Positions 1,166-49,612 of a DNA stretch of 64,000 nt are shown here, one piece after another. The notes under the pieces were generated by a model. It was not told where the DNA came from, did no database searches, and worked only from the letters and a program-made list of their open reading frames with translations. Every line of letters begins with the position of its first letter. The stretch's first letter is position 1. The DNA lies in NCBI GenBank assembly GCA_028583605.1, contig CM053326.1:8812587-8876586 (forward strand), in the 5' to 3' direction. The DNA is from Dastarcus helophoroides. Taxonomy: Eukaryota; Arthropoda; Insecta; Coleoptera; Bothrideridae. A program made the translations under genes and the position numbers.

Positions 1166-1648
1166 TTTTGTTACTTTTCAATAGAGCTTTTGCTTCCTAT
1201 TATCATATTCTATTTTGCTTATAGGGTTATGTATTAGAAAAGTAGAAAATGGTGCCAAAATTGTTGTATTCAATTGCAAGTGGCGATAAATTGTCACTTG
1301 CAATAAATATAAATAAATAATAAATTTAAGTATAAAAGAAAGGGTAGAATTTCTTATGGTTTGGAATGGGATGATAGAAAAAGATCACAAGGAGAAGTTT
1401 GTGCTCTATTTAATTGTAGGAACGAAGCAATTGAGTGGCCCAATAGATTACATGAATTGACACCCCTTGAATTTTTCCATACCTTTTAGACACACTGTAA
1501 TTATTAATATATTTTATGAGTTATGATTATTGAAGAATTTCACACAATAAGTATAAATTGATCAACATTATTATATTTATATATGTAACCACAGAAGGTA
1601 AGTTCTTCACTCTTATTGGTTGGAAACATTAAGTTTATTAATTTTATT

Positions 1649-1768
1649 TAACATTTCTGCGACCCAGTTTGGAAATATTTCAATATTTGATAATGAAAGT
1701 CTCGGAATATTGTCAACTTTCATTAGTAAAAATTTAAATATTTCCAAACTGGGTAGCAGAAATGGTAA
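1649..1768. mobile_element. Mini foldback (120 bp) of the TTAACATTTC family
   Basis: Two arms of about 40 bp form an inverted repeat: TAACATTTCTGCGACCCAG at the left is mirrored by CTGGGTAGCAGAAATGGTAA at the right. The arms continue through GTTTGGAAATATTT. The same end sequence bounds the 1.3-kb palindrome at 12051-13354 and the element at 32573-36496, so this is a very short relative or deletion derivative. No ORF is present. Confidence 0.75.
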
Positions 1769-2149
1769 ATAACATTAATAAGCGCAGCAAAAGGTAGATT
1801 TCCATTAATTTATTCAATTTTAAATGCTACTAAAAAAGCAGCGATTACCGCAAATCAGCTGGTCACCGCTAAAAGATAATAGAGTATCAAGTATAAATAT
1901 TATATAAAGTTAATAGCGTAAAATGCAAATCTTTCATACTGGCTGTGTAAAAAATATTGAACCAAATGGGATTATATGGTAATGGTTTTGCATTTAGATT
2001 TGCTATTTAGTGGGGTTATATTAAATATAAATACCTATGTTTTGATATCGCCGTCATTTGTTTTGTTTGCCTGGTGTTTATCAGAGGCAGCCACCTTAAA
2101 TATTTTTAAGTGGCAGGCTAGGTTTAGTTTAGTACTATTTGGCAGGTAA

Positions 2150-2381: not shown

Positions 2382-3417
2382 CAGTCGCGGCTGGTGACTT
2401 TTTGACAGGGGGTACGCAGATGAAAAAATATTAGTATTTAAGAGTTTAGGTGACTCCAGTGACATAACAAGGTATTAAATTTAAGAGAAACAAATGTGAA
2501 ACAAAAGATGTGATATTTAATAGTATTTTTACGAATTAAATTTAATTACCAAAATATTTTTGGGTTATTATCTCTAAATTACTTTCATCGAGTACAAAAA
2601 AAAAACATTATCGACATTTCTGAGCCCCTTTAAAGTACTTTATGTGGTTGCACCTCGTTACGGCTCTAGGTTACTTAATTAAAATTGTTTGCTTTCATAG
2701 GAATGATATTATATCACTTTTTAATGTAAATCTGCATCTGAAGATAAAATGGATTTTATTACAAAGTTTTAATTAAACTCTTACAAGAACACAAAAAAAA
2801 AATTTAAACAAAATCCGCTTTACGATCTTATAAAGAAATAATTGTTCATTACTTTCTCAGCAATATTGTCTAAATCCAAATCAACAAATTAATAATTAGA
2901 CCCTAGAATGGGTACTGATATGTCTTTGTAAATAGCAGGTACTACTGGCAGTTAGACCTGTAAGCGGCACAATTAGCCATCGCATTCAGATCAGCCGGCA
3001 CCTACGCATTTAGCATCATAAACCGTAAACACACACTTCAAACTTTGACTCGTACTCATCATTTGGCAATGTCGCATAAGCGGAGCGGCCGTACCACGGG
3101 CTAGCTTTAACGTGGTTTTCTGTAGTTTATTTCTCCGCATCCCGTGGAGGGTCGTTGATAGGCATCGCACGGCAGCCCGCTGGGTGCATAATTCTGTGCG
3201 CACCAACTTATTTAAATTTCCTTATAATACATAATATAATGGAATAAAACGTTTGTGAACTTCACTCCAAGTCACTCACAAGTATTATTAGTTAATTAGT
3301 ATATTTTGTGATTAAAAATGTAGTAAATTCAAGTCTTTTACATTAAACAGAAAAGAATCGATAGCTTAATTGACGGAGAACGCGCGCTCTTGCGCTCTTT
3401 AAGACCAGCCGCCACTG
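2382..3417. mobile_element. hAT MITE (1036 bp) with 8-bp target duplication
   Basis: The element starts CAGTCGCGGCTGGTG and ends ACCAGCCGCCACTG. These are inverted ends of the CAGTGGCGGCT type also seen at 23944 and 29836. It is flanked by a perfect 8-bp direct repeat, GTGAATAT (2374-2381 and 3418-3425), diagnostic of the hAT superfamily. It interrupts the mariner transposase tail. No transposase coding sequence is recognisable inside; a 71-codon minus-strand ORF at 2991-3206 has no family resemblance. A GC-richer patch lies near 3060-3200. Confidence 0.88.
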
Positions 3418-7425: not shown

Positions 7426-8702
7426 GAGGTGTATAATTTGAAATCCGCTGTTTGCTCATTGATGACGTTAGTGGGCGTATTACCAGCTACCATGGAAATG
7501 TCTTACTGTTTTCGTATGAGTTCGATATCTGTTCATATCAATCAGTGCACATCATAAGCGATTTGATACAACAACATTACATTTTTCTTTGTGTAATCAT
7601 GTCTAGTTTTGTGCCAAAAAAAGAGCATATGCGGGAAGCTCTGCTTTTCTGCTTCAATTCAAGGAAATTGACTGCCGAATCACATCAAATGCTTGTGAAA
7701 GCCTATGGTAACAGTGCTTTATCGAAAACAACTTGCAGAGACTGATTTCGTTGGTTCAAATACGGCCATTTTGACTTGAGTGACAAGGAGCTTGAAAATC
7801 AGCCAAGAAAGGTCGAGGATCATTAATTACGGGCTCTTTTGGACCAGGACGATACCCAATCGCAAAAAATGCTTGCCGAGCAGTTAGGTGTCACTCAGCT
7901 AGCCATTTCCATGCGTTTACGTGCCATGGGAAAGGTTCAAAGAATTGGAAAATGGGTACCCCATGAATTGAACGATAGGCAGATGGAGCGACGCCAAAAC
8001 ACATGCGAAATCTTGTTTACCAGACAAAAAAGAAAGTCATTTCTGCATCGTGTGGTGACTGGCGATGAGAAATGGATTTATTTCGAGAATCCTAAACGCG
8101 ACAAATCGTGGCTTGATCCGGGCCAACCATTAATATCTTCCCCAAGACCAAATCGATTTGGACGGAAGACGATGCTGTGCCTTTGGTGGGATCAGCAGGG
8201 AATCGTCTATTACGAGCTGTTGAAACCTTGTAAAACTGTAGATGCCCACCACTACCACCAACAGCTGATTAAATTAAACCGTGCTTTTCGTGAAAAAAGG
8301 TCTGGCTATCAACAAAGATATGACAAACTAATTTTCCTTTACGACAACACACCATCGCACACGTCGAAATTGGTCCAAAATTACCTGCAAACACAGAACT
8401 TGGAGGTGTTACCCCATCCTGCTTATTCGACAAACCTGGCTCCTTCTGACTATTACCTGTTTGCGTCGATGGGCCACGCACTCGCCGAACAGCACTTTGA
8501 TTCTTAGGAAGACGTTTGAAAATTGGCTGGACGAGTGGTTTGCCTCGAAAGATAAGGAATTCTTTTGGCGTGGTATTCACGAATTGCTCGAGAGATGAGA
8601 AAAATATATAGCTAGCGAAAAGAAATGTCTTTTTTTGCTTTCTATACAAAACAAATGTGTTTTTATTACTAAAAAACAGCCGATTTAAGCATATACCTTA
8701 AA
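7421..8702 (+). mobile_element. Mariner element, mauritiana (Mos1-like) group
   Basis: A near full-length mariner of about 1.28 kb. The terminal inverted repeats are imperfect. The left end near 7421-7453 holds GAAATCCGCTGTTT and the right end near 8676-8702 holds AAACAGCCGATTTAAG. TTA/TAA at the edges is consistent with TA target duplication. Between them lies a single transposase reading frame, broken by stop codons (see 7599-8624). The element abuts a copy of the local three-copy repeat, so it probably inserted at its edge. Confidence 0.85.
7599..8624 (+). pseudogene. Mariner transposase, Mos1-like, inactivated
   Basis: The reading frame starts MSSFVPKKEHMREALLFCFN and runs for about 340 codons, the usual length for this family (about 345). 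The N-terminal helix-turn-helix region is followed by the linker WVPHELNDRQMERRQNTCEI, typical of Mos1 relatives. The catalytic triad positions can be seen. The first aspartate is in VTGDEKW near 8063-8080. The second is in LYDNTPSH near 8338-8361. The third is in LAPSDYYLF, 34 residues after the second (D34D). Internal stops occur after TTCRD (7743), after VEDH (7824), after QHFDS (8505) and near ER (8596); there is no intact product. The longest open stretch is 7839-8507. Similarity to the mauritiana subfamily rather than mellifera or irritans is judged from the C-terminal ASMGHALAEQHFDS and WLDEWFASKDKEF. No active transposase is expected from this copy. Confidence 0.93.
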
Positions 8703-11013: not shown

Positions 11014-11653
11014 CAGAGACTAAATAGACTGAACCTAACACGGTAAGCAGTGAAGCCAGTTGAAAGCCTGGCGAAAGCCTAGCTCCATCTAGCTCGCAAT
11101 GCCCTCTTATTATTTGACAGACCTTTGCGAAGATAACATCGGTTTTTTTTTAAGAAAATGGGCTGTAAATATGGGGAAGTGTGTTGTGGATCATTGTTGA
11201 AACCTCAGTGAACACATTAGTGAAGGAAAATCAAGAGTTTCATTCTTTGGGTAGGTAAAAATAAAATATATATATATTCAATTATCGGCGTGCGCGCGTC
11301 GCCATTTCACTGCAATCATGACGTGTTTACAGTACCGGCTTAACAATATTGTACACAGGCGTCGCGTATTGAAAGAAAATTATTTTACTATTAAACCAAG
11401 ATGTCTTTGAAAATAGTTCTCCTGAACTTTTAGCAAAAAGCACTTATAAAAATTATCCTATTGGTCCAAAAGCCCCTAATTTAAAGTTTCATCTAAATCG
11501 TTAGAACCGTTACGCGGCAAGTTTCGTATTTATAAATTTTACTTAATCCGACCATATCAAAGAGTAGTGGAATGCACCTCCCCACTTCCCCGGATTTTAG
11601 CTTCAACTGTACGCATGAGACAACATTGAAACGTTCAGTCTATTTAGTCTCTG
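11014..11653. mobile_element. hAT-type MITE (640 bp), perfect 8-bp target duplication
   Basis: Terminal inverted repeats of at least 21 bp start CAGAGACTAAATAGACTGAA at the left and mirror at the right (TTCAGTCTATTTAGTCTCTG). The element is flanked by the perfect 8-bp direct repeat GTGCCTTC (11006-11013 and 11654-11661). TIRs beginning CAG with 8-bp duplications fit hAT. No transposase is present inside. It is richer in G+C than its surroundings. Confidence 0.9.
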
Positions 11654-12317
11654 GTGCCTTCGGTATAAGCACAGTCCACAGTTCTTTACTGAATCGGTAC
11701 TGGATAATCAGGAAACTGCTTATGGTAGGCTAGCAGGTACAGTTACTTCTACTAGGGCCGAACAGAGAACGAATGTGGTCAGCAAAATGCTTCCGCCGTT
11801 CATTATTACCTCGAACTACTTCCGAGTACTCATTTCACCACAATGGCTAAGTTGACCTTGGGAACCAGAGTATTTCTTAAAAACGGGCGGTGGATAAAAC
11901 CTCCTTGCGCCAGCGGGGATAGAAACTATTTCTTTTAGATATAATAATCCAGTGCTGTACTACTCGACCACGATCCCCCAACAAATTTCTTATACTCTTG
12001 TAGACTGTTCTTTTTGCGTTCTTGCAAATCAAATAAGTATTTATTACTTTTAACATTTCTTCGGCCCAGTTTGGAAATATCTAAATTTTTCAGGTTTGTT
12101 GACAATTTTCTAAACAGTTTTTGAAATGTGACTACTTGATATTTAAATTTATTGAAAACGTCACTTCATGACAGTTCACAAATTAAGAGGTTAGTTTATT
12201 TTACATAGAATAGGAATAATGAAAAATAGAAGACCAAAAAATTAGATATGGAAAAAATAAAAATTTTGTTTTTTTGATAAATTAGGAAAATATAAAAAAA
12301 TATATAAAAAGGTTGTA

Positions 12318-12364
12318 GCACTGGACATCGATGTTTCGCTCTCATTTGAGCTCGTCAGCAGTGT
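12318..12364 (-). ncRNA. Hammerhead ribozyme motif, left arm
   Basis: Minus-strand mirror of the right-arm ribozyme. The core CTGACGA and GAAAC elements and stems II and III are identical to those at 13041-13087. Stem I has five pairs plus one A-C mismatch. The predicted cleavage position follows the C complementary to G12324. Confidence 0.75.
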
Positions 12365-13040
12365 ATAACATGGAAAGGGAACAATGAGGAAGAAATATTT
12401 AAAAATAAAAAAAAATTTTAAAATATAAAAAAGAAAAATAAAGAAATTTTAACATGAATAGACGTTTCATCATCAATTTACTGTGTTAAAAATTTACTGT
12501 GTTAAAAACTTAAATATGTGAAGCCCGATCCACAAGAAACAACTACTCCGAGGGCTAATACCCCTTCCGGCATTGAACTACACTTGTGGGTCGAACTTAT
12601 ATGCTCTTGGTGACTACTGTTCCTAACCGCTGAAAACTATTCAACTTGGTAATTAGAAGCACTCACCATTTGCGGAGTCCATTCGTTCCGTTAGAGGAAT
12701 AGGTTTATTCTTCATGGTAGACCCTTATTGACCGGAACGAATGGACTCCGCAAATGGTAAGTGCTTCTAACTACCAAGCTGAATAGATTTCAGCGATTAG
12801 GAACAGTAGTCACGAAGAGCATATAAGTTCGACCCACAAGTGTAGTTCAATGCCGGAAAGGGTATTAGCCCTCGGAGTAGTTGTTTCTTGTGGATCGGGC
12901 TTCAAATATTTAAATTTTTAATACAGTAAATTGATGATGAAACATCTATTCATGTTAAAATTTCTTTATTTTTCTTTTTTATATTTAAAAAAATTTTTAT
13001 TTTTAAGTATTTCTTCCTCATTGTTCCCTTTCCATGTTAT

Positions 13041-13087
13041 GCACTGCTGACGAGCTCAAATGAGAGCGAAACATCGATGTCCAGTGC
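13041..13087 (+). ncRNA. Hammerhead ribozyme motif (type I), right arm
   Basis: All conserved positions of the hammerhead core are present. Stem I is GCACTG (13041-13046) with CAGTGC (13082-13087), six pairs. CTGACGA (13047-13053) supplies the C-U-G-A-N-G-A core. Stem II is GCTC/GAGC with an AAATGA hexaloop (13054-13067). GAAA follows (13068-13071). Stem III is ACA/TGT closed by a TCGA tetraloop. C13081 is the position-17 residue after which cleavage would occur. The very short stem III is typical of the hammerheads described in Penelope-like elements and in retrozymes. Whether this RNA is made and cleaves is not shown by the sequence. Confidence 0.85.
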
Positions 13088-13411
13088 TACAACCTTTTTA
13101 TATATTTTTTTATATTTTCCTAATTTATCAAATAAACAAAATTTTTATTTTTTCCATATCTAATTTTTTGGTCTCCTATTTTTCATTATTCCTATTCTAT
13201 GTAAAATAAACTAACCTCTTAATTTGTGAACTGTCATGAAGTGACGTTTTCAATAAATTTAAATATCAAGTAGTCACATTTCAAAAACTGTTTAGAAAAT
13301 TGTCAACAAACCAGAAAAATTTAGATATTTCCAAACTGGGCCGAAGAAATGTTAAATAAATTGAAAAAAAAACATAATATTTCCGGTCAATAAGGGTCTA
13401 CCATGAAGAAT

Positions 13412-14920
13412 ATTTATTATTTTGTTTTTGATATTTTGAATTAGTGGAATATTCAGCTCTCACCATCTCCCGCCAATTTCGTCGTTAGAAAACAAAGTGA
13501 TGCAACGTTGCTAAATCCTAATAGACACAAAGGCCACTGAATACTTGTGAACTTGCTGGAATCGTATTATCTGGCATGAAAAGCGTTATCCACATTTATT
13601 TGTTTTATTTATGAAAATTATTGTTTAACGTTATTCATACAACATATGGTGAAGATAACACTACTAGTTTCTTTACTGCAATATTTAGCTTGGAAATATG
13701 GAAAGCAATATTGTTATAACGTATTTGCTCTTTGGTAAACATAAACATGAATCATTGTTTTGACAAGAAATAAAAGATAGAGGAACGAAGCACTCGATTA
13801 AACGAAAGATAAATAGGAGCAGTGGCTGCTAAATTGAGTATTAAGTCGAGAAAATCCGTAATCCTTTGAAAAGTAAACAGTCAATATGGGCGAAGGAGAT
13901 AAAAGTATCGTTGTTGGCCCCGTAAAGATGTTGGCAGACATTTCCAGATAAAACAAAAAGCTTGACAAGTGCAGACGTCATTGAGAATTGAGCGATAGCA
14001 AGTTTGTGCGATTAAGAAGGCCAGAAAACTTGTTAACAAGGGTTGATAACGGAACGTATTGTTTGGATGTTAGCCCATCTCATATCTAGCAGATTTTCAT
14101 TTTAGATCTGTTAGTCTCGACCGACGAAAAGCGAGTTTTAATGTTGATTTGAATCTATTTGATGAGATTTATTTATCTGATCTCTTAAATACATTTGGGG
14201 CCGAGCGTACAACTTTTCTGTTTGTTCGATAAAATTTGTTCCATGATAAAATCTAATAGTTTCATGTTTTTAAATTTGTTTTCGTTATCTAGCTATAAAG
14301 TTCATTTCTCGGTTGTGTAAATTTCCAACTTTGGTGCCATAACTCATTGCATTTCTGCCTGCCAAACCACAGCATGTGCATGTATATCCATTCTATTGCC
14401 AGAAATGTGTAAATTTATATGTGACAATTTTAAAGAATGATCCGTTATTTCTCAATATTTCTATTTCATGCACAGCTCGACGTAGGTACTTTATTACTTC
14501 CTTTATTGAAAAGCGGTTATTTGTGAAATCACTACAAAACTGCAAGTCGTATATTACAGCGCGAAAATCCATTTAGAAGATGAATTTTTTCTCCTTACTC
14601 ACTTGTTGAATTTATGATTGTAATTGTTTTCAGCTTTGGTAGATTTCTGTGCGAGGGATTAAAAAGAGGCGCATTTTTATAGAACTATAATTATATTGTT
14701 TTGATTTAATAAAGTGGTTACTGTGAATTCCATTTAAATTAATTACTTTTTATTAGTTACCGTGAAATGGAATAAAAACTTTATTTGATTCTCATGACTA
14801 AATGTTAGTTATTGACATTATTCATTGTCAGGTCTCATCAAAAACAGACAGATTTATGTAGTGATAATAAATAAAAAAATTAAGTACTGTTTCTTATCGA
14901 TTTTGCAATCTTTTTTATGT
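13412..14920. other. Intergenic, no recognised gene
   Basis: AT-rich DNA with a moderately GC-richer patch at about 13790-14060 that has no intact frame. A 66-codon ORF at 14376-14576 has no recognised family. I see no repeat boundary here. Confidence 0.4.
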
Positions 14921-16700
14921 TTAATTCACCGCAAAGGATAACTCTGTTAGGCCTTCAAAGCACCGCGAAGTAGGGATGCGGAAACAAGGACAGGACGCCT
15001 TTTTAAACAAGGATAGGTTGTAATTTTTGGGGAAAATTCCGTTCGGTAACGAGCTCCACGGCTTAGAAGTTCTATAAAAAAAAGAGCCTCCGTAGACAGA
15101 AGTCCTCACTATGTCAGCCTGGACCGCACAGAAGTTTGCTGCATCAGACTGTCTTGTATGCCTCAAAAATCTTGCCCTTGGGAGGTTCAATCCTATTACT
15201 TCCTGTAAGACAAATCACCAACCATACGCCTGTGCTCTAGTGTTTCAAAAGAATCTGTTAACCCCTAGACATCAATAAGGCAAATCACTATTCATTGAAT
15301 TGAATCCAAAAGAGCGAAGGTGTGTTTTGGGACTGAACTCCAAACATAGGAGCAGTATTTGAGTGTTGGTCTAAATTGAGCTTTGTATAAGGCAAGTAGC
15401 TGATGAGATGTAAAGTACGTTTTGGCCCTAAAAAGAAAGCACAGCTTCTGAGAGGAGGATTTGGCGATGGCGCGCACATGATCGTCCCAAGAGAAGTTAG
15501 TGCTCATATTCACTCCTAGGATAGATAGATAGTTGTACCGTTTATTAGTATGTTTGTTGCATTATCCCTTGATGTTTTCTTAGAGAAAACCGGAACCTGA
15601 GCCTTTGGAACGTTGAAGTCGACCAGATTTTTCTTACCTTATTCTAGAATAATTTTGAGATTCCGATTAATCACCTGTATCTGCGGTTCCGTTAATCGAT
15701 CTAAAGCAGCGACGAATAATGGTTTGTCGGAGAAAAAAGGTGACACCGGCCTACTGTCATTCGCGTAGCTGTATATTGGATTAGAAGCTAATGCTAAGAA
15801 ATCGTTTATGTGTAACAGAACCAGAGTAGGATACAGGATAGACCCTTGAAACATTTCTGTATTAATAACAAATGTCTCGGATGAGATGCCACCGACGATG
15901 ATCTGAAGAGATCTATCAGCGAGAAAACTGGATATAAAATGACAGAGTTTAGGAGAAAGATCATAGGATGTTAATTTGGAGAGAAGAGATCGGTGCCAGA
16001 CTCTGTTAAAGGCTTTTGAGATATCCAATGCCAATTACACATATGAGTAACATATACCTGTAAATTGCTGGTTAAGCGTTGTTGTCTCTAACCGTATTGC
16101 CCGCCCGAGATGATTCTATTCTTTACTAGATATTTAAAAATCTTGATTTTGATTACATTTTTCATCACTTTAAATATAACGTGCAACAAAGATATAGGAC
16201 AATAGCTTTTAGCCGGCTTCCTTTTTCCCTCCCTGGGAACAATCCTAGCCTTACCACGTTTTTCCATAGTTGAGTCACAGATATGAGTGACATATGCCAG
16301 TAGATGGCCAGTGGAACGTTGTTGTCTAAAACCGCATATCCTGTTAGAGATGATTCTATTTTCCTCCAGATATTTGAGAATCTGGATGTTTCATCACTTT
16401 AGATATAACGAGTAACAAAGATATAGGGCGATAGTTGTTAGCCAGATTCCGTTTTTCCTTTTTGGGGACAGGCTGCACTCTAGCAGATATCCAGATGTTA
16501 GGAAATACACCTTTGTTGTAAGAGAGTGTAAACAATTTTCTTAGGACAGAAGTCAACTCTGGAGCGCACTTCTTAAGAATAATAGCGGGGATACCATCAA
16601 GATCAGAAACTTTTGATGTGTTGAGCTCGAGGGGAATCTTCCTGATTGAAGCCGCCCTATTTTGGAATTTGGCAGACTTGGAATTACGAAGACATCTTAC
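14921..16700 (-). pseudogene. Jockey/CR1-like LINE reverse transcriptase, decayed
   Basis: Read from 16700 down to 14921, the fragments follow reverse transcriptase order. First is a DLDGIPAIILKKCAPELTSV region. Then comes KLFTLSYNKGVFPN and PVPKKEKRNLANNYRPISLL at 16356-16556. Then ALDISKAFNRVWHRSLLSKL at 15981-16034, a QGSILYPT motif, and YANDS near 15753-15767, where the catalytic Y-A-D-D should stand. After that follows the thumb and C-terminal domain (15292-15513, LLALYKAQFRPTLKYCSYVW), and finally SKPWSSLPNGIFPKNYNLSL at 14921-15190. The second metal-binding aspartate is changed to asparagine (YAND). Frames are split by stops, and a duplication interrupts the finger domain. The endonuclease and ORF1 are absent or unrecognisable. 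It would not be active. Confidence 0.85.
16035..16500. repeat. Tandem duplication inside the LINE
   Basis: About 235 bp, starting near ATATGAGTAACATATACC (16042) and again near ATATGAGTGACATATGCC (16280), is duplicated head to tail. The unit covers the reverse transcriptase stretch between ISKVMK and the F-LEEN---S-R-YGF region. The copies differ at many positions, so the duplication is not recent. Confidence 0.65.
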
Positions 16701-32572: not shown

Positions 32573-32855
32573 TTTTAATATTTGTTCGACTCAGTTTAAA
32601 AATATTTAAATTTCTAACCATCACCTCAGGACAGCTGATAAAGATAGGTCAGTTTATTTTACACAGAATATGAAAAAAAATGCAATGGAGAACACCAAAA
32701 TTAGACATTTTTAGGTAAATTATAAGGATATAAAAAAATATCTAAAGAAGTTTGTAGCATTGAATATCGATATTTCATTCTTATTTGAGCTAGTCAGCAA
32801 TGCGTAACAAGCAAAGAGAACGATAAGGAAGAAAGAAGTAGTTAACAATTCAAAT

Positions 32856-34423
32856 GCATATACCCCGACTTACGCTACCCCGTTTTACGCGAATTCGGAG
32901 ATACGCGGTTTTTCATTTTGATTGCCGCGCGCATCGGCTCTCTCGCTCCGCCCTCTCAATGTTCAGTTTGCGACAGGTTTAAACGTGTTCCGCGTGGAAT
33001 TGTTTTACGTGCGCAGTGCGTTTTACTTATAATCTCTAATTATGTCATCTAAAAGAACGAAAAATGAGTCATTTGAGCCTAACAAGAAAAGAAATACACT
33101 GTCTTTGGAGTGTAAACTGAATATAATTAAAGACTTTGAAGCAAAAATTAAAATTTGTGAATTGGCAAAGAAATTTGACCTACCGGAATTAACAGTCCAA
33201 ACGGTTATAAAAGGTAAAGAAAAAATTATGAACGCTGTGAAAGACTCTCAATCTTTGAATTCAATTATCATCCGTAAGCATCACGATATTATCGCGCAGA
33301 TGGAAACATTGCTACAGTCATGGTGTGATAATCAAGTAAGAGTGAAAAATTGTCCTGTAGATCAAAATACAGTGTGCTTTTAAGCAAAGCAGATTTTTGA
33401 AAAACTAAAAGAAGAAGCTGGGGAGGCTGCTAAAAATGAAGTGTTTAAAGCTAGTAACGGCTGGTTCAGCGGATTTTAGAGTCGTTGTAATTGGCATAGC
33501 ATCACAGAGAGTGGAAAAGCGGCAAGCGCTGATAAAGAAGCCGCATCTCTCTATCCAGAAAAACTCAAAACAATGATAGACGAAGGTGGCTACACTAGCC
33601 AAACCATTTTCAACGTAGATGAAACCGGTCTTTTTTGGAAGAAAATGCCTAAAAAAACTTTTATTGCCCGTGAAGAGAAAACTTTTCCAGGTTTTAAAGC
33701 CGCCAAGGGTCGATTGACAGTGATAGCTGGTGCGAATGCAGCTGGAGATTGTGTCCATTCTTTTCATCACTGAAATCCAAGGAGAATCAGTTTCCTGAAC
33801 AAATCGATAGCATAATAGAAGAAGTGGTCGATATCGCCAAACAATTAAATTTAGAGGTCGATCATGATGACGTTCAAGAATTGTTAGATTCACACAATCA
33901 AGAGCTAACAATTGACGAGGTTATAGAAATGCGTAAGTATGAGCAAGACATTGAACAAACTGATTCGCTAGACCCAGTGGAATCGGTAAATCAAATGACA
34001 ATTGCAAACTTAACAGAAGGACTCAATTCAATTGAAAAGGGGTTACAAATTTTAGAAAAAATATATTCTAATGAATAACGCGTTTCTACTACAAAACGAG
34101 GAATAAAAAAATAACTGGTATGCTACGAGGAAATTTTGCGTGAGAAGAAGAAAAACTTAACATTGTTAAAATATATGAAGCCTTCGACATTAAAATAAAT
34201 TCGGTTTAGGTTACTTTATTCATAACAATGTAAATTGTTTTATTATCTTACACTTTATTAAACATTTTTCTTCTAAATTATTGTTTTCTTTAAACTCTGG
34301 TCTCGATTAAACATACTTTATATGTATTGTATTTATATGCAAAGTTGAACCCCTACTTACGCGAATTCGACTTACACGGCAATCGCTCGGACCCACCTAC
34401 CGCGTAAGTCCGGGGTATTACTG
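32856..34423 (+). mobile_element. Tigger/pogo element (about 1.57 kb), deletion derivative
   Basis: The left end TACCCCGACTTACGC and right end GCGTAAGTCCGGGGTATTAC are inverted and match the Tigger consensus end CAGTAATACCCCGACTTACG. The right end CTG is followed by TA, the expected target dinucleotide. The extreme left end is mutated. It lies in the left arm of the 32573-36496 foldback. Two internal stops and a deletion inactivate its transposase. Confidence 0.85.
33042..34078 (+). pseudogene. Tigger transposase (CENP-B-like), deleted
   Basis: Starts MSSKRTKNESFEPNKKRNTL. Residues 20-60 (LSLECKLNIIKDFEAKIKIC, then ELAKKFDLPELTVQTVIK) form the psq/CENP-B N-terminal helix-turn-helix. The second DNA-binding domain (MNAVKDSQSLN to FEKLKEEAGEA) is broken by a stop at 33380. 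The next block, KASNGWFSGF, ends in a stop at 33477. TIFNVDETGLFWKKMPKKTF (33604-33663) contains the first catalytic aspartate. After GRLTVIAGANAAGDC the frame breaks and about 200 residues, including the second and third catalytic acids, are missing. The acidic tail then follows at 33780-34078 (VDHDDVQELLDSHNQELTID). Inactive. The antisense ORF at 33405-33911 is a shadow. Confidence 0.88.
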
Positions 34424-34639
34424 TATTTTAAAAAATGAGTAGACGTTCCATCAATAATTTAAAGTTAAATTCACAAGAAAAAGGGGTAAATACCCCTTCC
34501 GGCATTTAACCACGCTTACATGATCTGGATGTTTACTGTCATAAACCTCGGAATAATTGTATCTTATTGATCGAACTTCAAATATTTAAATTATTACCAC
34601 CGTTAATTATTGATAAAAATTAACTCCTGTTAAAAAAAT

Positions 34640-35792
34640 ATAGGGTAATTCTAAGGAAAAAAGCCATAGACGAGAGATGGACCAGGACACTAAATGCCCT
34701 TATATTTTTAGCGTTGGTTGTTTAAATTAAAATGACGTAAATTACTCGTGTCGAAGAACAACTCGCCAAGTTTTCGTGTTGTGAAGTGCAATAAGAGGTT
34801 AGTTATTTTAATAATTATTTTTCGTCACATGCAAATATTCTTATTGATTATTTTCAATCATTTGAGTTTTACATAATTCAGGTTATAAATAATTTAATAG
34901 GTATTTTCTATAATTACCTTAGTGTGCAAAGACGTCCACAATGATTTCATAAAAATTAAATACATAAGATCTGAAATACTGGTGTGGCCATATTATCTCT
35001 ATAAAAGGCCTTTTTCTTTTCTTAGGAGTTATGGCCATAGTAGCGAATGTTGTATTTTGTTTCAGATTATAAACATTTGCAAAAAAAGTTCTTTAGACCG
35101 GAAGACAAGTTGAAGGATGGTTTGAACATGAAGTATCGACTTGGGTCCCAAATTGTGGAATAAGGATGAACTCTGAAAATACACGAGGTAGAAAGACTAT
35201 GTTGTGTCTTCGAGGTGGAGAGTGCTGACAATATCTTACGTTTCTAAATTTGGAATATGCGCAAATTGAAGATCCCGATTCCCTTTATATCATTTTTTGG
35301 GTACTGTATTTTGGAAGGGTGTAATCTCGTCAAATAGTAGAAAAAAAATCCCAGTATTGCAACGTAGTATTTTTGAAAGGAACGAATTCTTATGCTAACC
35401 AAGAAACGTTTTACCATAAATGAGAATGGGCTAGCAACTTTTTGTCCTAAACAGGCCAACTGAGAAATAATTTTTCTTTTATAAAAGTAATGTTTAGTTT
35501 CTAAATAAACTACATTGCCTTTTTATGCTAATTTGACATTATAAACGTGTTTATTTTGTTCTATTTTTTTTTGTTTATCCTATTCTGGCCAACTTTTCTA
35601 CATATACTTAGGAAAGATGGCCCATAGACCAAATTTTATTTTTGGGTCGCAGTGATAAATAGGTACTTATTAAATTATCAATTAAAGATGTCAAGTACTT
35701 AGTGTACCACACTCAAATGTACATTGACATAAAATCGTACTTAATTATTTAGGAAGTTGGAGTTCATTGGCTACCTTCCCTAGATTTACCAT
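34640..35792. mobile_element. TIR element inserted in the foldback
   Basis: TAGGGTAATTCTAAGGAAAA at the left pairs with a mirrored TATGGTAAATCTAGGGAAGG end at the right; both continue to AGCCA. TA is at both edges. It interrupts the right arm of the foldback. The interior (ORFs at 34922 and, antisense, 35244) shows no protein I recognise. Confidence 0.6.
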
Positions 35793-36079
35793 ATGTATTT
35801 CGATTTAATATTTTTAATTAATTCGTGCTCCTTTATTGTTCTTTTTTCATTTCATACATTGCTGACAGGCTTAAATAAAAGCGAAACCACGATGTCCAAT
35901 GCTACAAATTTTTTACTCTTCTTATATCTTTATTATCTACTTAAAAAATTACCTTATATATTTCATTTATTTTCGAATTCTGTGTAAAATAAACTAACCT
36001 ACCTTTGTCATCTGTCATGAGATGACGTTTTGATAATTAAGATATCACGTAGTGGTACTTAAAAAAATATTTTTTCATT

Positions 36080-36425
36080 TAATTCACTCGCAAAGGGCAA
36101 CCCCCATATGCTTTCAAAGCACTGTGAGTAGGATGCGGAAACAAGGACAGATGGCGATGAACCTCCTTCTTAAACAAGAATAGGTTGTAACTTTTGGGAA
36201 AAATTCCTTTTGGTAACGAGTTCCATAGCTTGGAGGTTCTATAAAAAATCTCTACTTAGACAGAAGTTCTCACTGTGTCAATCCGGACCGGATAGAGAAT
36301 TTGCTGTCTCCGACTGTCTTGTATGCCTCAAAAATCCTACCCTTGGGGGGATCAATCCTATTAGTTCCCGCGAGCATCCCCCATGATAGTGCTTGCAGAA
36401 AAGAGACAAGTCACCAACCATGTTT
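36080..36425 (-). pseudogene. Jockey/CR1-like LINE 3' end in the foldback arm
   Basis: A minus-strand match to 14921-15240: AAAGGGCAACCCC, GATGGCGATGAACC, GGTAACGAGTTCCATAG, TGTCTTGTATGCCTCAAAAA and AGAGACAAGTCACCAACCAT in the same order. Only the end of ORF2 and the short 3' tail are present, as expected for a 5'-truncated retrotransposed copy. It sits between two parts of the foldback's right arm. Confidence 0.8.
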
Positions 36426-36496
36426 CAGAATACTGTCAAATTTCATTACTAAAAATTGAAATACATATTTCCAAGCTGGGTCGACTAAATGTTAAA

Positions 36497-38600
36497 ATGA
36501 AATTAATAATGGTAATGTTTTCATCCCATAAGGATCTAAAAAGAAGAATAAGTATTACGTAGTGATTTGCTTTTGAAGACTACCTGATCCCAACTTGTAA
36601 CTCAAAATGCACTACCCTAACCAGTATCGCCAATATGAACCTTCAAAAATTCCTTGAAAAGACTTTTTCATTTTAATTACATAAAAGTACATAGTCATTT
36701 ATCTATTCTAACTTTAGAGCCCCTACAGACACTCCAGTTTTTACTCCGGTTTATCTGCGCAGTCCAAATACGTACAGTTTTGCCTAAATCGAGGGCTGCT
36801 CCTATACAATTCATACTTTTCGTTTAATTCCGATGAGACTTGTAAAATGAAAATTCGAAAAACAAGTTGCAAAAGTGCAAAGCTCTTTTAAGTGCGTTAG
36901 CATTTCCTTATGTTATATTATTTTGCATCAGGTTCTACGTCCATTAACTTTCATATAATTTTTCATACGTTGTCGATTTTTTTATTAGGATTATTTTTTA
37001 CCCTTCATAGGCAAGACTAATTTTAATAAAGTTCTATAAATTGATTCAAGTATCTTTCAAATATTCTCTAACATTTATACAAACGTATCTAAAAATTTCA
37101 TAGAATAGATGCCACCAGAAGGACATAGAACTCTTCTATCGGCCTGAATTTTGCACTAAACGCATAGACGTTCAAAGTTGGCGCGAGCAAATATTAGACG
37201 ACATCAGAAGTTGTACAGACCGGGCTTTGCGCTCGCACAGGCGGCCTATATTACACACACATATCATGGCTTAGTTGCACAAACTGGGTTTATGTAGACA
37301 AGCCAAAGTAGGGACAATTTGACCAGAAACTATCTGCAAAATACTATTATATATTCACCTGCTACATTTGGAAACACAGTATTTGCTTTTATTAATATTT
37401 AGAGAAAAAAATTAAAAAAAACTTTCGAGTATTGGCACTTGAAAGCATTGTATACTATGTTTCTGCATACCACGTCTTCGTAAATAGAATAGATGAATTT
37501 GTTTCATTTAGCTGCAAAGATGTATAAGCATCTTAATACTTGTGGGGAATTGAAAACTTATTTTTTAAAGAAATGTTGGTTACTGTGTTTTGAAATGTGT
37601 CTGCTGAATCAACCTAATATTAAAAGCATTGGCAATCGTTAACTCTAAACGTCACTTATCTAGAGATAAAAGAATATCTGACAAACTGGATCTAATTTCC
37701 GAAAGCATTTTTATGTGACTGATTCCAGAAGAATCCAATTTACCGCATTACTGACAATTTCGACATCAAGCCATTCAATTCCTACTTGTCAAACAGAATT
37801 GCAGACGCTGAAACAGGAAGTTCTAATTAAAGGCACCGGTAGACTAAGCTAAAACATTATATTGTAGCGGTGAAAATTAAAACAATATTTTTGCAGTTCG
37901 ATGATAAAAATTGTAGAACCGGGCATTCATTTCTTTAATTAACAATTAAAATTACAGGCTTTTGAAATGGTAGATGTACGACACAAAGGACTTTTGTTCG
38001 GGAGAGTCGGCACTTCACAGAAACAATTAGTGAATAAGGACAAAAACAGTTAATGACTAAATCATCCCCTTTTCTTGCGCAACCTATTTCAGCCCTCCAG
38101 TTTAGATATTTAAAGCATAATCCTTTTTTACCGGACTTTGCGGACATTAGTAATCCCTTGGTTATAGATATTTTGCGTGTGAAAGAGGATTTATAACATG
38201 AAAATTTAATTACAGTTGATTATAAAAAGTTTTATAATTAAAAAGTTTCAGTATTACTTTGCGCTAATAATACACGTGATGCAAATAAAATCGGAAACTG
38301 AAAGCTTGGTTTTATTTTTTATCCGGTCAGATTAATTTAACGAACCGCGCTCGAGGTAAAACCTTTTACTACACACAAAGTTTGTTTTATGCAGCATTCG
38401 TTCATGAAAGTAAAATTATATTTAATGGGGGCTTTTAATCGGCAAATATAAAATAAGGTGGCACATAAAATATTATATTTATTGTTGCACTGGAAAACTT
38501 CTTAAGCGATTTGGGAGGAACTAGAAAAATTACTGTATTTCTTGAGCATAAGTATCTGATCAAAAATGGGATGTCAAAATTTTAGCAAAATTATTGAAAT
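36497..38600. other. Intergenic, no recognised gene
   Basis: Mostly AT-rich. A GC-richer patch at 37130-37270 has no intact frame. The minus-strand ORF at 37935-38147 (70 codons) is unrecognised. No repeat boundary noticed. Confidence 0.4.
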
Positions 38601-42504: not shown

Positions 42505-43345
42505 TCAAGAATAAAGAACCTTGATTATTCCATACATCCTAGGTCTCTTGGATAAAATGAAACGAATAGGCCAAAAATTCAATATACGTACAGCATTCCA
42601 AACACAAAATACTGTAAGATCATTACTAGTAAATACAAAACCAAAAAATGAAACACATCATACCAAAAATTGTATTTACAAAATAACCAGCGAATGCAAC
42701 AAAATTTATATAGGTGAAACATCCAGACCTATGTGGATTCGCATTAACGAACATGAAAATTGCTTAAGTAAGGAGATTTTTCAAAATCAAAAATTTGCGA
42801 ACACAGAATTCAAGTGGACGAAATCCTGTATTATTTGCAGAGAAACACATTTACAAAAAAGAAAAATTAAAGAAGCAGCTGTGTGGCAAATTGTTTGATT
42901 GATATAAACGGTATGTGGCTGCCATTGTTAAAACAAAAACAACTAGGTCGCCTTAGAATCACCTAGGGAATAGTCTAATAAACTGTCAGAATTATTTCTG
43001 ACACCATTCACAAAATTGTAGAGGAAGAAATGTGAATTCATTTTCTGACGACGGGCAGGGAATAACACTGCTTGAAAAGTTAAACCTTTAAAATAATCTT
43101 GTTGCTATTAGGTTTTACGTCGTTTAAATTCTAAGATAGTTTAAAGTGTTTGTCTGTGTTGAGTCACAGGCAGCAATTGACAAACTAAGATCCAACGCAA
43201 TCGCTGCTTGGGGCAATCTATAAGAGATTGCCAATTCTTAACAGAAGGTTACTGAAAATTTTGAATTGTTAAAGGAGTAACTGGCAAAGAAAGAACCAAT
43301 AAAACATGAATAGAAATACTAATACTTTGCATAGAAAATACAGAG
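42505..43345 (+). mobile_element. Penelope-like element, 3' part
   Basis: Contains the C-terminal linker and GIY-YIG endonuclease of a Penelope-like protein (42521-42898), followed by about 450 bp of 3' non-coding DNA. The last 260 bp of this recurs at 9150-9420. The reverse transcriptase itself is absent, and the 5' boundary near 42505 is a truncation. It abuts the right end of the 38604-42242 element by about 260 bp of unassigned DNA. Confidence 0.8.
42521..42898 (+). pseudogene. Penelope-like endonuclease (GIY-YIG) fragment
   Basis: The frame reads IIPYILGLLDKMKRIGQKFN, then TVRSLLVNTKPKNE, the linker that follows the thumb in Penelope-like reverse transcriptases. Next comes NCIYKITSECNKIYIGETSR followed by R--EHE. 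These are the G-(I/V)-Y and Y-I-G motifs of a GIY-YIG nuclease, with the first glycine changed to cysteine (N-C-IYKI). The conserved arginine in the helix after YIGETSRP and the glutamate-histidine pair are kept. The domain ends with CRETHLQKRKIKEAAVWQIV, normally the R-IKEAI-I motif. Penelope elements use this nuclease for target cleavage in retrotransposition. With no reverse transcriptase attached the piece is inactive. Confidence 0.88.
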
Positions 43346-49097: not shown

Positions 49098-49419
49098 ATA
49101 TAACTGTGAAACGCATATAATATGTGGCATAAAGAATGTTTACATTAGGAATGGGTTTGAAGACAAAAGTAAATTTTTATTTTACTTATTTATTATTTGT
49201 TTGTATATTTTATTTTTATGTGTTGGGCTTGAAGAAAAACTTTCTATTTTTTGCAAAAAAAATAACTTTAAACTATAAAACCAATTCTCGTGGTGTTCAC
49301 TTTTGGTTTTACCAACGGCTTTTGCTTTGTATGCGTATGGGTTATAGGCTATAAATTCGCCACACAGAAGTTTATTTTTTTAAACCATTCTCAAATTATA
49401 AAAATTTAATTAAAAAATA

Positions 49420-49612
49420 ATTTCCATGTCTAATTTTGTTCTTCTCTATTTGATTTTTCTTCTATTCTGTGTAAAAGAAACTAACCTATTTCGATCAGGT
49501 GTCATGAAGTTACGTTTTAAGAATTTATATATCACGTAGTCATAATTCAAGGAATTCTTTAATTGATAATGTTGTCAACTTTCATTAAAAAAAATTTAAA
49601 TATCACAAAAAT
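49420..49612 (+). mobile_element. Right-arm fragment of the hammerhead-family foldback
   Basis: Matches 13155-13340: CCATGTCTAATTTT, TATTCTGTGTAAAAGAAACT, TGTCATGAAGTTACGTTTT, ATCACGTAGTCA and GTTGTCAACTTTCATT. It stops before the CCCAG terminal motif and lacks the hammerhead part. Confidence 0.75.

Follow-up and report, generated by a model that had tools for sequence, protein, structure and literature searches.

A palindromic insertion with a hammerhead ribozyme in each arm in Dastarcus helophoroides: a retrozyme-like unit probably inserted by the enzyme of a Penelope-like element

The closest described relatives of the element studied here are the animal non-LTR retrozymes (Cervera and de la Pena; PMC7229834). 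In the parts of that paper drawn on here, these are small AT-rich non-coding units with a type I hammerhead ribozyme (HHR), which are found as multimers and in high copy number, are flanked by duplications of more than 4 bp and co-occur with Penelope-like elements (PLEs). The HHRs of invertebrate retrozymes have a short stem with a tetraloop (PMC7229834), whereas those of PLEs are minimal variants without helix III or loop-loop contacts (PMC7761336). It has been proposed, from co-occurrence, shared type I HHRs and tandem copies, that PLEs provide the enzyme that moves the ribozyme-bearing RNA circles of animals, the retrozymes (PMC7229834; PMC7761336). PLEs of the Penelope/Poseidon type occur as head-to-head or inverted copies with an optional tail of ~30-40 nt and with short duplications (PMC11167929, PMC3846280). 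In the Adineta Penelope the pLTRs are inverted, the tail has 31 bp and the duplications have 8-10 bp (PMC3846280), and in vitro the purified Anolis PLE protein cuts and extends both target strands and starts the cDNA at two sites bounding the tail (PMC11167929). Each of these papers is cited for part of its text. Among the titles and abstract beginnings listed by searches of an open-access library, none described head-to-head retrozyme insertions.

The window analysed is a stretch of 64,000 nucleotides from the beetle Dastarcus helophoroides. A first-pass annotation had described a palindromic mobile element at 12051..13354, a perfect foldback with a hammerhead in each arm. Its mobile nature is supported, but the insertion actually extends from ~12047 to ~13410 and its arms are only 93-96% complementary: the ungapped complementary pieces measure 388 nt (96%), 200 nt (95%) and 94 nt (93%), and with gaps the complementarity is 93% over 1,332 columns. 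We consider it likely that the locus is one retrozyme-like insertion made by a PLE reverse transcriptase/endonuclease from a circular template, with both nicked target strands serving as primers. The features of the insertion are as follows.

~12047 to ~13410: whole insertion, ends set by the extra right tail and the flanking duplications
12038..12046, no strand: left target-site duplication TATTTATTA, exact 9-mer, identical to 13411-13419
13411..13419, no strand: right target-site duplication TATTTATTA, 9-bp match to 12038-12046
12047..12737, minus strand: left arm, read as cDNA of unit 649->695->1->624 (0.96 lap), outer end untailed
12691..12705, minus strand: 15-nt stretch linking the unit end to the next unit start, also found between consecutive units in copy L010
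12706..12737, minus strand: second copy of the tail, at the centre and upstream of the left arm; matches 13381-13412 in reverse complement at 100%
12733..13412, plus strand: right arm, unit 1-680 (0.98 lap), outer end tailed; served as unit reference
about 13378-13410, plus strand: tail (~35 nt) between the 3' end sites ~q645 and ~q680, at the right outer end only
13041..13087, plus strand: hammerhead core of the right arm (from sequence and covariance model), predicted cut after C13081
12318..12364, minus strand: hammerhead core of the left arm, bounded on both sides by stem I (from sequence and covariance model), predicted cut after C12324

When positions in the window were drawn at random and 2 nt of slack was allowed on each side, a 9-mer match of the TATTTATTA kind came up in 8 of 20,000 trials. 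The left arm aligned to the unit without interruption at the unit junction (12049-12737, minus strand, to U2 649-1319, 94.8%), and this, together with the tail copy at 12706-12737, shows that the template ran on into a further unit. Since the unit runs into itself across the 15-nt stretch, the template was a head-to-tail multimer or a circle. The window element contains no frame of at least 150 aa. An ACCATG lying across the unit junction (window 13396-13412 and 12733-12760) opens a 20-codon frame, MKNKPIPLTERMDSANG..., which in L010, in L024 and in the left arm is followed by a splice-donor-like GGTGAGT; this may be what is left of the beginning of a PLE frame.

The identity of the ribozymes was examined by cmscan of 2,400 bases (11501-13900). 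Both sites matched RF02275 (Hammerhead_HH9), the best-matching covariance model, over the full model length, one with 40.2 bits (E 3.5e-8) and the other with 36.8 bits (E 4.3e-7). The outer part of helix I is unmatched here and both scores are below the gathering score of 52; the scan of the whole window against Rfam at the gathering threshold gave 0 matches. The features of a type I hammerhead are present, namely the core CUGANGA..GAAA..UH, stems I-III and an open stem I. As judged from the sequence, both arms hold a complete type I core for which self-cleavage is predicted, and the type assigned by the first-pass annotation stands. The annotation had also regarded the short stem III as established for retrozymes and PLEs alike; this agrees with the tetraloop stem of retrozymes (PMC7229834) and disagrees with the minimal HHRs of PLEs (PMC7761336), in the parts of the two papers used. 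Because it has a short stem III and PLE HHRs are minimal, the window HHR would be grouped with retrozymes rather than with PLEs.

A genome search with RF02275 at E<=10 gave 57 matches, none above the cut-off, and at this threshold the model also matches in 11 of 14 control genomes. All ten loci cut from this search (two of them overlapping) map to the unit. When the 35-nt HHR core was searched with up to 3 mismatches, 2,084 sites were found in the 539-Mb genome and none with the reversed control. The covariance search, which had been suggested as a check, thus scored both sites and the core stood clear of its control. The suggestion that compensatory changes might be seen among copies was borne out thinly: 96.9% of 390 HHR pair cells are paired, and two-sided changes occur at 3 pairs (4 cells) among 30 distinct rows, some of them coming from the AT-decayed copy at 32-36 kb.

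Conservation was measured at 20 loci chosen by whole-unit score among the best matches, a choice that favours long young copies. The divergence from the majority per site was 0.0061 in the HHR and 0.0224 in the rest of the unit; among the 46-nt windows listed, each of the five with the least divergence overlaps the HHR, outside it the minimum was 0.0101, and the 3' end (q601-680) had 0.0146. Measured against the window copy, the values were 0.0061 (HHR), 0.0401 (rest) and about 0.015 (q601-680). In the alignment of distant, old and decayed copies the window holding the HHR comes 18th of 247. The expectation of a core better conserved than the remainder of the arm therefore holds for young copies, while conservation among old decayed copies is not clear. 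As no other part of the unit is conserved so well as the HHR in young copies, these comparisons suggest that cleavage probably matters at some step of the element's life.

The unit from which the arms are built is a 695-nt, AT-rich (GC 0.301), non-coding, retrozyme-like sequence with one HHR, high in copy number and non-autonomous. First-look candidates in a DNA search with the unit numbered 2,716; scoring of 40 of them gave 85 matches, and 20 stretches (L039-L058) were taken from the best-scoring of these. Mapped on the circularised unit, the arms ranged from 0.07 lap (L029) up to 2.41 laps (among L039-L058). Multimeric or tandem arrangements are present in L045, L047 and L048, and L030, L031, L035 and L036 are single-arm copies. 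With the animal non-LTR retrozymes (PMC7229834, in the part used) the element thus has in common the type I HHR, the small AT-rich non-coding unit, multimers, high copy number, duplications of more than 4 bp and the presence of PLEs in the genome. It differs in unit size (695 nt instead of tandem repeats of 150-450 bp units) and in that head-to-head insertions following the tail rule of PLEs are common; expression as linear and circular RNA is part of the definition of the class and would be expected of the present element. The circular fold of the unit was only slightly more stable than those of 30 mononucleotide shuffles (-127.2 versus -116.1, sd 6.1), and the predicted RNA fold, which is suggestive only, places the untailed start site in an A-rich hairpin loop. 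A fixed 5' end at q646, which the match list had seemed to indicate, was rejected, the arms running beyond this point and the break coinciding with a poly-A stretch. The phages and viral contigs searched with the element contained no match.

The surroundings of the locus were surveyed in a 264-kb sample (the window plus 200 kb to its right), scanned without selection of copies. The unit matched at 12 places; six of these are two-armed, each with the minus arm on the left and the plus arm on the right. The unit junction is crossed without a break at 12049-12737, 77203-78199 (1.4 laps) and 217723-218415 (264-kb coordinates), and in the neighbouring copies 77203-78199 and 217723-218415 unit end, 15-nt stretch and next unit follow in the same order. 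At 173918 (same coordinates) there is a 29-nt insertion consisting of the tail only, with a 12-bp AAT-rich duplication, which indicates that q680 is a cDNA start. The further copies in the window are the following.

32573..36551, no strand: older two-armed copy, split by later insertions
32748-32812, minus strand, and 35847-35911, plus strand: decayed HHRs of the older copy
1609..1781, no strand: short two-armed copy, minus arm U516-665, plus arm U563-635
49373..49610, plus strand: single-arm fragment, unit 371-603, without HHR

Within the older copy, at ~32870-34420, lies what we take to be a DNA transposon of Tigger/pogo appearance. Elsewhere in the window there are a mariner-type transposase frame (7827-8504; Pfam Transposase_1, E 4e-23), a fragment of a distant PLE family (42527-42877; 30% identity to residues 656-777 of the frame of L062, a full PLE of this genome, E 5e-13) and, at 15903, CTGAAGAGATCTGTCAGCGAGAAA-like words that are repeated many times across the genome.

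All two-armed retrozyme insertions examined were head-to-head with their arms pointing outward. Among opposite-strand neighbours of the exact HHR core within 2.5 kb (first 100 listed) 10 were head-to-head and none tail-to-tail, and one same-strand pair was 709 nt apart, about one retrozyme unit. Their outer ends fall at two different sites, ~q645 and ~q680. Of the 19 two-armed insertions in which both ends are visible, 18 have one tailed and one untailed end, the exception being an old copy (L038) that reads as tailed at both ends. Flank words of at least 9 nt (9-16 nt) were common to both sides in 13 of 18 insertions, compared with 15 of 306 swapped controls; the remaining five had no exact shared flank word of 9 nt, and in one of them, L010, 14 of 15 flank bases match by eye. 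Many centres show small overlaps or short gaps, and the centres differ between copies.

Near-perfect inverted arms and a short duplication, as seen at the window copy, would also suit a foldback or MITE DNA transposon moved by a transposase, with the hammerhead located in long terminal inverted repeats. Such an element should have identical ends and an inverted repeat of constant length, neither of which was found: the outer ends are unlike in 18 of 19 cases, the arms vary in length within and between copies (up to 2.4 units), the centres differ, the duplications vary in length, and tail-only as well as single-arm copies are present. We rejected this candidate, to which we attach hardly any probability. 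From the same variation (arms of 0.07-2.4 laps, shifting centres, one tailed end) we conclude that the palindrome results from the insertion of a unit with one HHR; the distinct palindromic element that had been supposed is not supported.

The insertion anatomy was compared with that of the PLEs of the same genome. A GIY-YIG-like frame near L024 was used for a genome search, which gave 3,506 candidates and 150 scored matches. Opposite-strand neighbours among these 150 endonuclease matches (within 8 kb) were head-to-head in 13 cases and tail-to-tail in none, and one same-strand pair was 2,816 nt apart, about one PLE. In three PLE insertions (L059-L061), whose arms are 99.9-100% identical, the duplications measure 13, 12 and 13 bp and one of the two ends is tailed in every case (3/3); L060 and L061 are spacer-free perfect palindromes of 1,734 and 2,074 nt, in which both arms stop at identical points. 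A full PLE (L062) has pLTRs at 208-448 and 3004-3245 and an 837-aa frame (RVT_1, E 6e-12) with the tail inside it; along its full length the frame shares 46% identity with an Anolis protein, and several of its named homologs are insect proteins. By eye we take L062 to encode a GIY-YIG endonuclease and to carry an HHR-like motif in each pLTR; a comparison of its frame with Pfam gave no GIY-YIG match, and for five broken PLE pieces no Pfam family reached significance. Two further sites, L026:3568 and L011:7698 (CTGACGAGATCTAACAAGATCGAAAC), are what we presume to be candidate minimal HHRs of the PLE type, the one in L026 being located within tandem repeats that precede a second PLE reverse transcriptase. 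In L054 (1-198) a retrozyme piece directly adjoins the tailed 3' end of a PLE, which could be a nested or a chimeric insertion, with retrozyme and PLE sharing one event.

The retrozyme insertions thus show the features of PLE-type insertion, that is head-to-head arms, one tailed end and a duplication. Because autonomous PLEs of the same genome share this geometry, the tail rule and the duplications, we conclude that insertion of the HHR RNA is probably the work of a PLE enzyme. The retrozyme differs from PLEs in having no reading frame of its own, neither a reverse transcriptase nor a GIY-YIG frame being found in it, and in the sequences of its HHR and tail. An identical anatomy would also be expected if the unit were a non-autonomous PLE derivative, made of the pLTR and the frame start of an unsampled PLE family, instead of a retrozyme moved in trans. 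The ACCATG and the short open stretch in the tail are compatible with such an origin, as PLE tails lie inside the frame (L062; PMC11167929, in the part used). On the other hand, the retrozyme copies read contain no reverse transcriptase or endonuclease frame, their HHR fits HH9 with a stem III and is, read by eye, unlike that of L062, and no PLE with the retrozyme tail was found (one full PLE read). With L062 as the one full PLE compared, no convincing similarity to the unit was seen (best E 8e-4, T-rich), and a PLE protein query on the 264 kb matched elsewhere and at none of the retrozyme copies listed. We regard derivation from a PLE as unlikely, and continue with a retrozyme-like unit inserted by the PLE enzyme.

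What the template looked like can be judged from the path of the arms. The HHR cut site is crossed by 30 of 35 arms, the unit junction by 14 of 35, and more than one lap is covered by 10 of 35, whereas no arm has its 5' end within 10 nt of the HHR cut. A linear monomer cut by the HHR was therefore rejected as template. The median difference was 0.021 between laps within an arm (10 pairs), 0.024 between the arms of an insertion (18 pairs) and 0.039 between different insertions (1,200 pairs), values derived from pairs that are not independent and among which the difference between arms could also have been lowered by gene conversion. The low differences between laps and between arms suggest that a single template, or like templates, gave rise to all arms and laps of an insertion.

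Multi-lap cDNAs of the same kind would be obtained if genomic tandem arrays were transcribed by read-through and the linear multimers were copied by the PLE protein, without circles and with the ribozyme idle. Tandem copies do exist (L045, L047), the uncut HHR site is crossed by those 30 of 35 arms, and PLE insertion in vitro is independent of HHR activity (PMC11167929, in the part used). An idle ribozyme does not agree with the HHR showing the strongest conservation within the unit among young copies, nor linear multimers with laps of an arm that differ no more from each other than its two arms do in an insertion. Copying of linear multimers is a serious contender, though on the unlikely side, and we prefer a circular template.

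According to the reading that we favour, the HHR would cut multimeric transcripts, and ligation would give circles of ~695 nt. A PLE reverse transcriptase/GIY-YIG endonuclease acting in trans would nick both target strands 9-16 bp apart, and each nicked 3' end would prime a cDNA, one beginning at the start site that precedes the tail and one at the site that follows it. Synthesis would end at varying points after up to several laps, and the two 5' ends would be joined. If both cDNAs were about one lap long, each arm would carry a ribozyme and the product would be a palindrome close to perfect, and the palindrome of the window is explained by both arms having run about one lap. Two-strand priming appears to be the most likely route by which the PLE enzyme inserts HHR RNA.

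Instead of two primed strands, a single cDNA could snap back, prime itself and copy its own sequence into an inverted arm. Self-priming has been argued for the Adineta Penelope (PMC3846280, in the part used), independent stops do not predict the spacer-free perfect palindromes of L060 and L061, and in one retrozyme copy (L024) the arm ends are only 4 nt apart. In 15 of 18 insertions, however, the template end points of the two arms are more than 20 nt apart (up to 242 nt), as expected for two separate cDNAs; arms can be very unequal (0.18 and 1.05 laps in L057), and a copied-back arm is not expected to stop at one untailed site nearly every time. One-strand priming thus seems distinctly improbable, and two-strand priming is retained.

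The first-pass annotation had suggested that pairing of the arms acts as a switch between self-cleavage and a long dsRNA feeding endo-siRNA. On each strand of the window copy one HHR does lie in sense orientation and the other is present as its complement, but with many copies having unequal arms such a switch is unlikely to be a general design of the family and could at most be a by-product of some insertions; judged from the sequence, we give it very little weight.

The insertion anatomy, that is the geometry, the tail rule and the similar duplications, now ties a retrozyme to PLEs within one genome. The two start sites have so far been seen in vitro; the genomic record fits two-strand priming and suggests a rule of one tailed and one untailed end. 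Paired priming may be general for PLEs and ribozyme RNAs, one strand always starting before the tail and the other after it, with circles giving multi-lap inserts, a generalisation that we put forward tentatively and at somewhat less than even confidence. If it is correct, head-to-head inserts with arms of equal length would mimic palindromes with two ribozymes, and a two-ribozyme palindrome can arise without any palindromic element.
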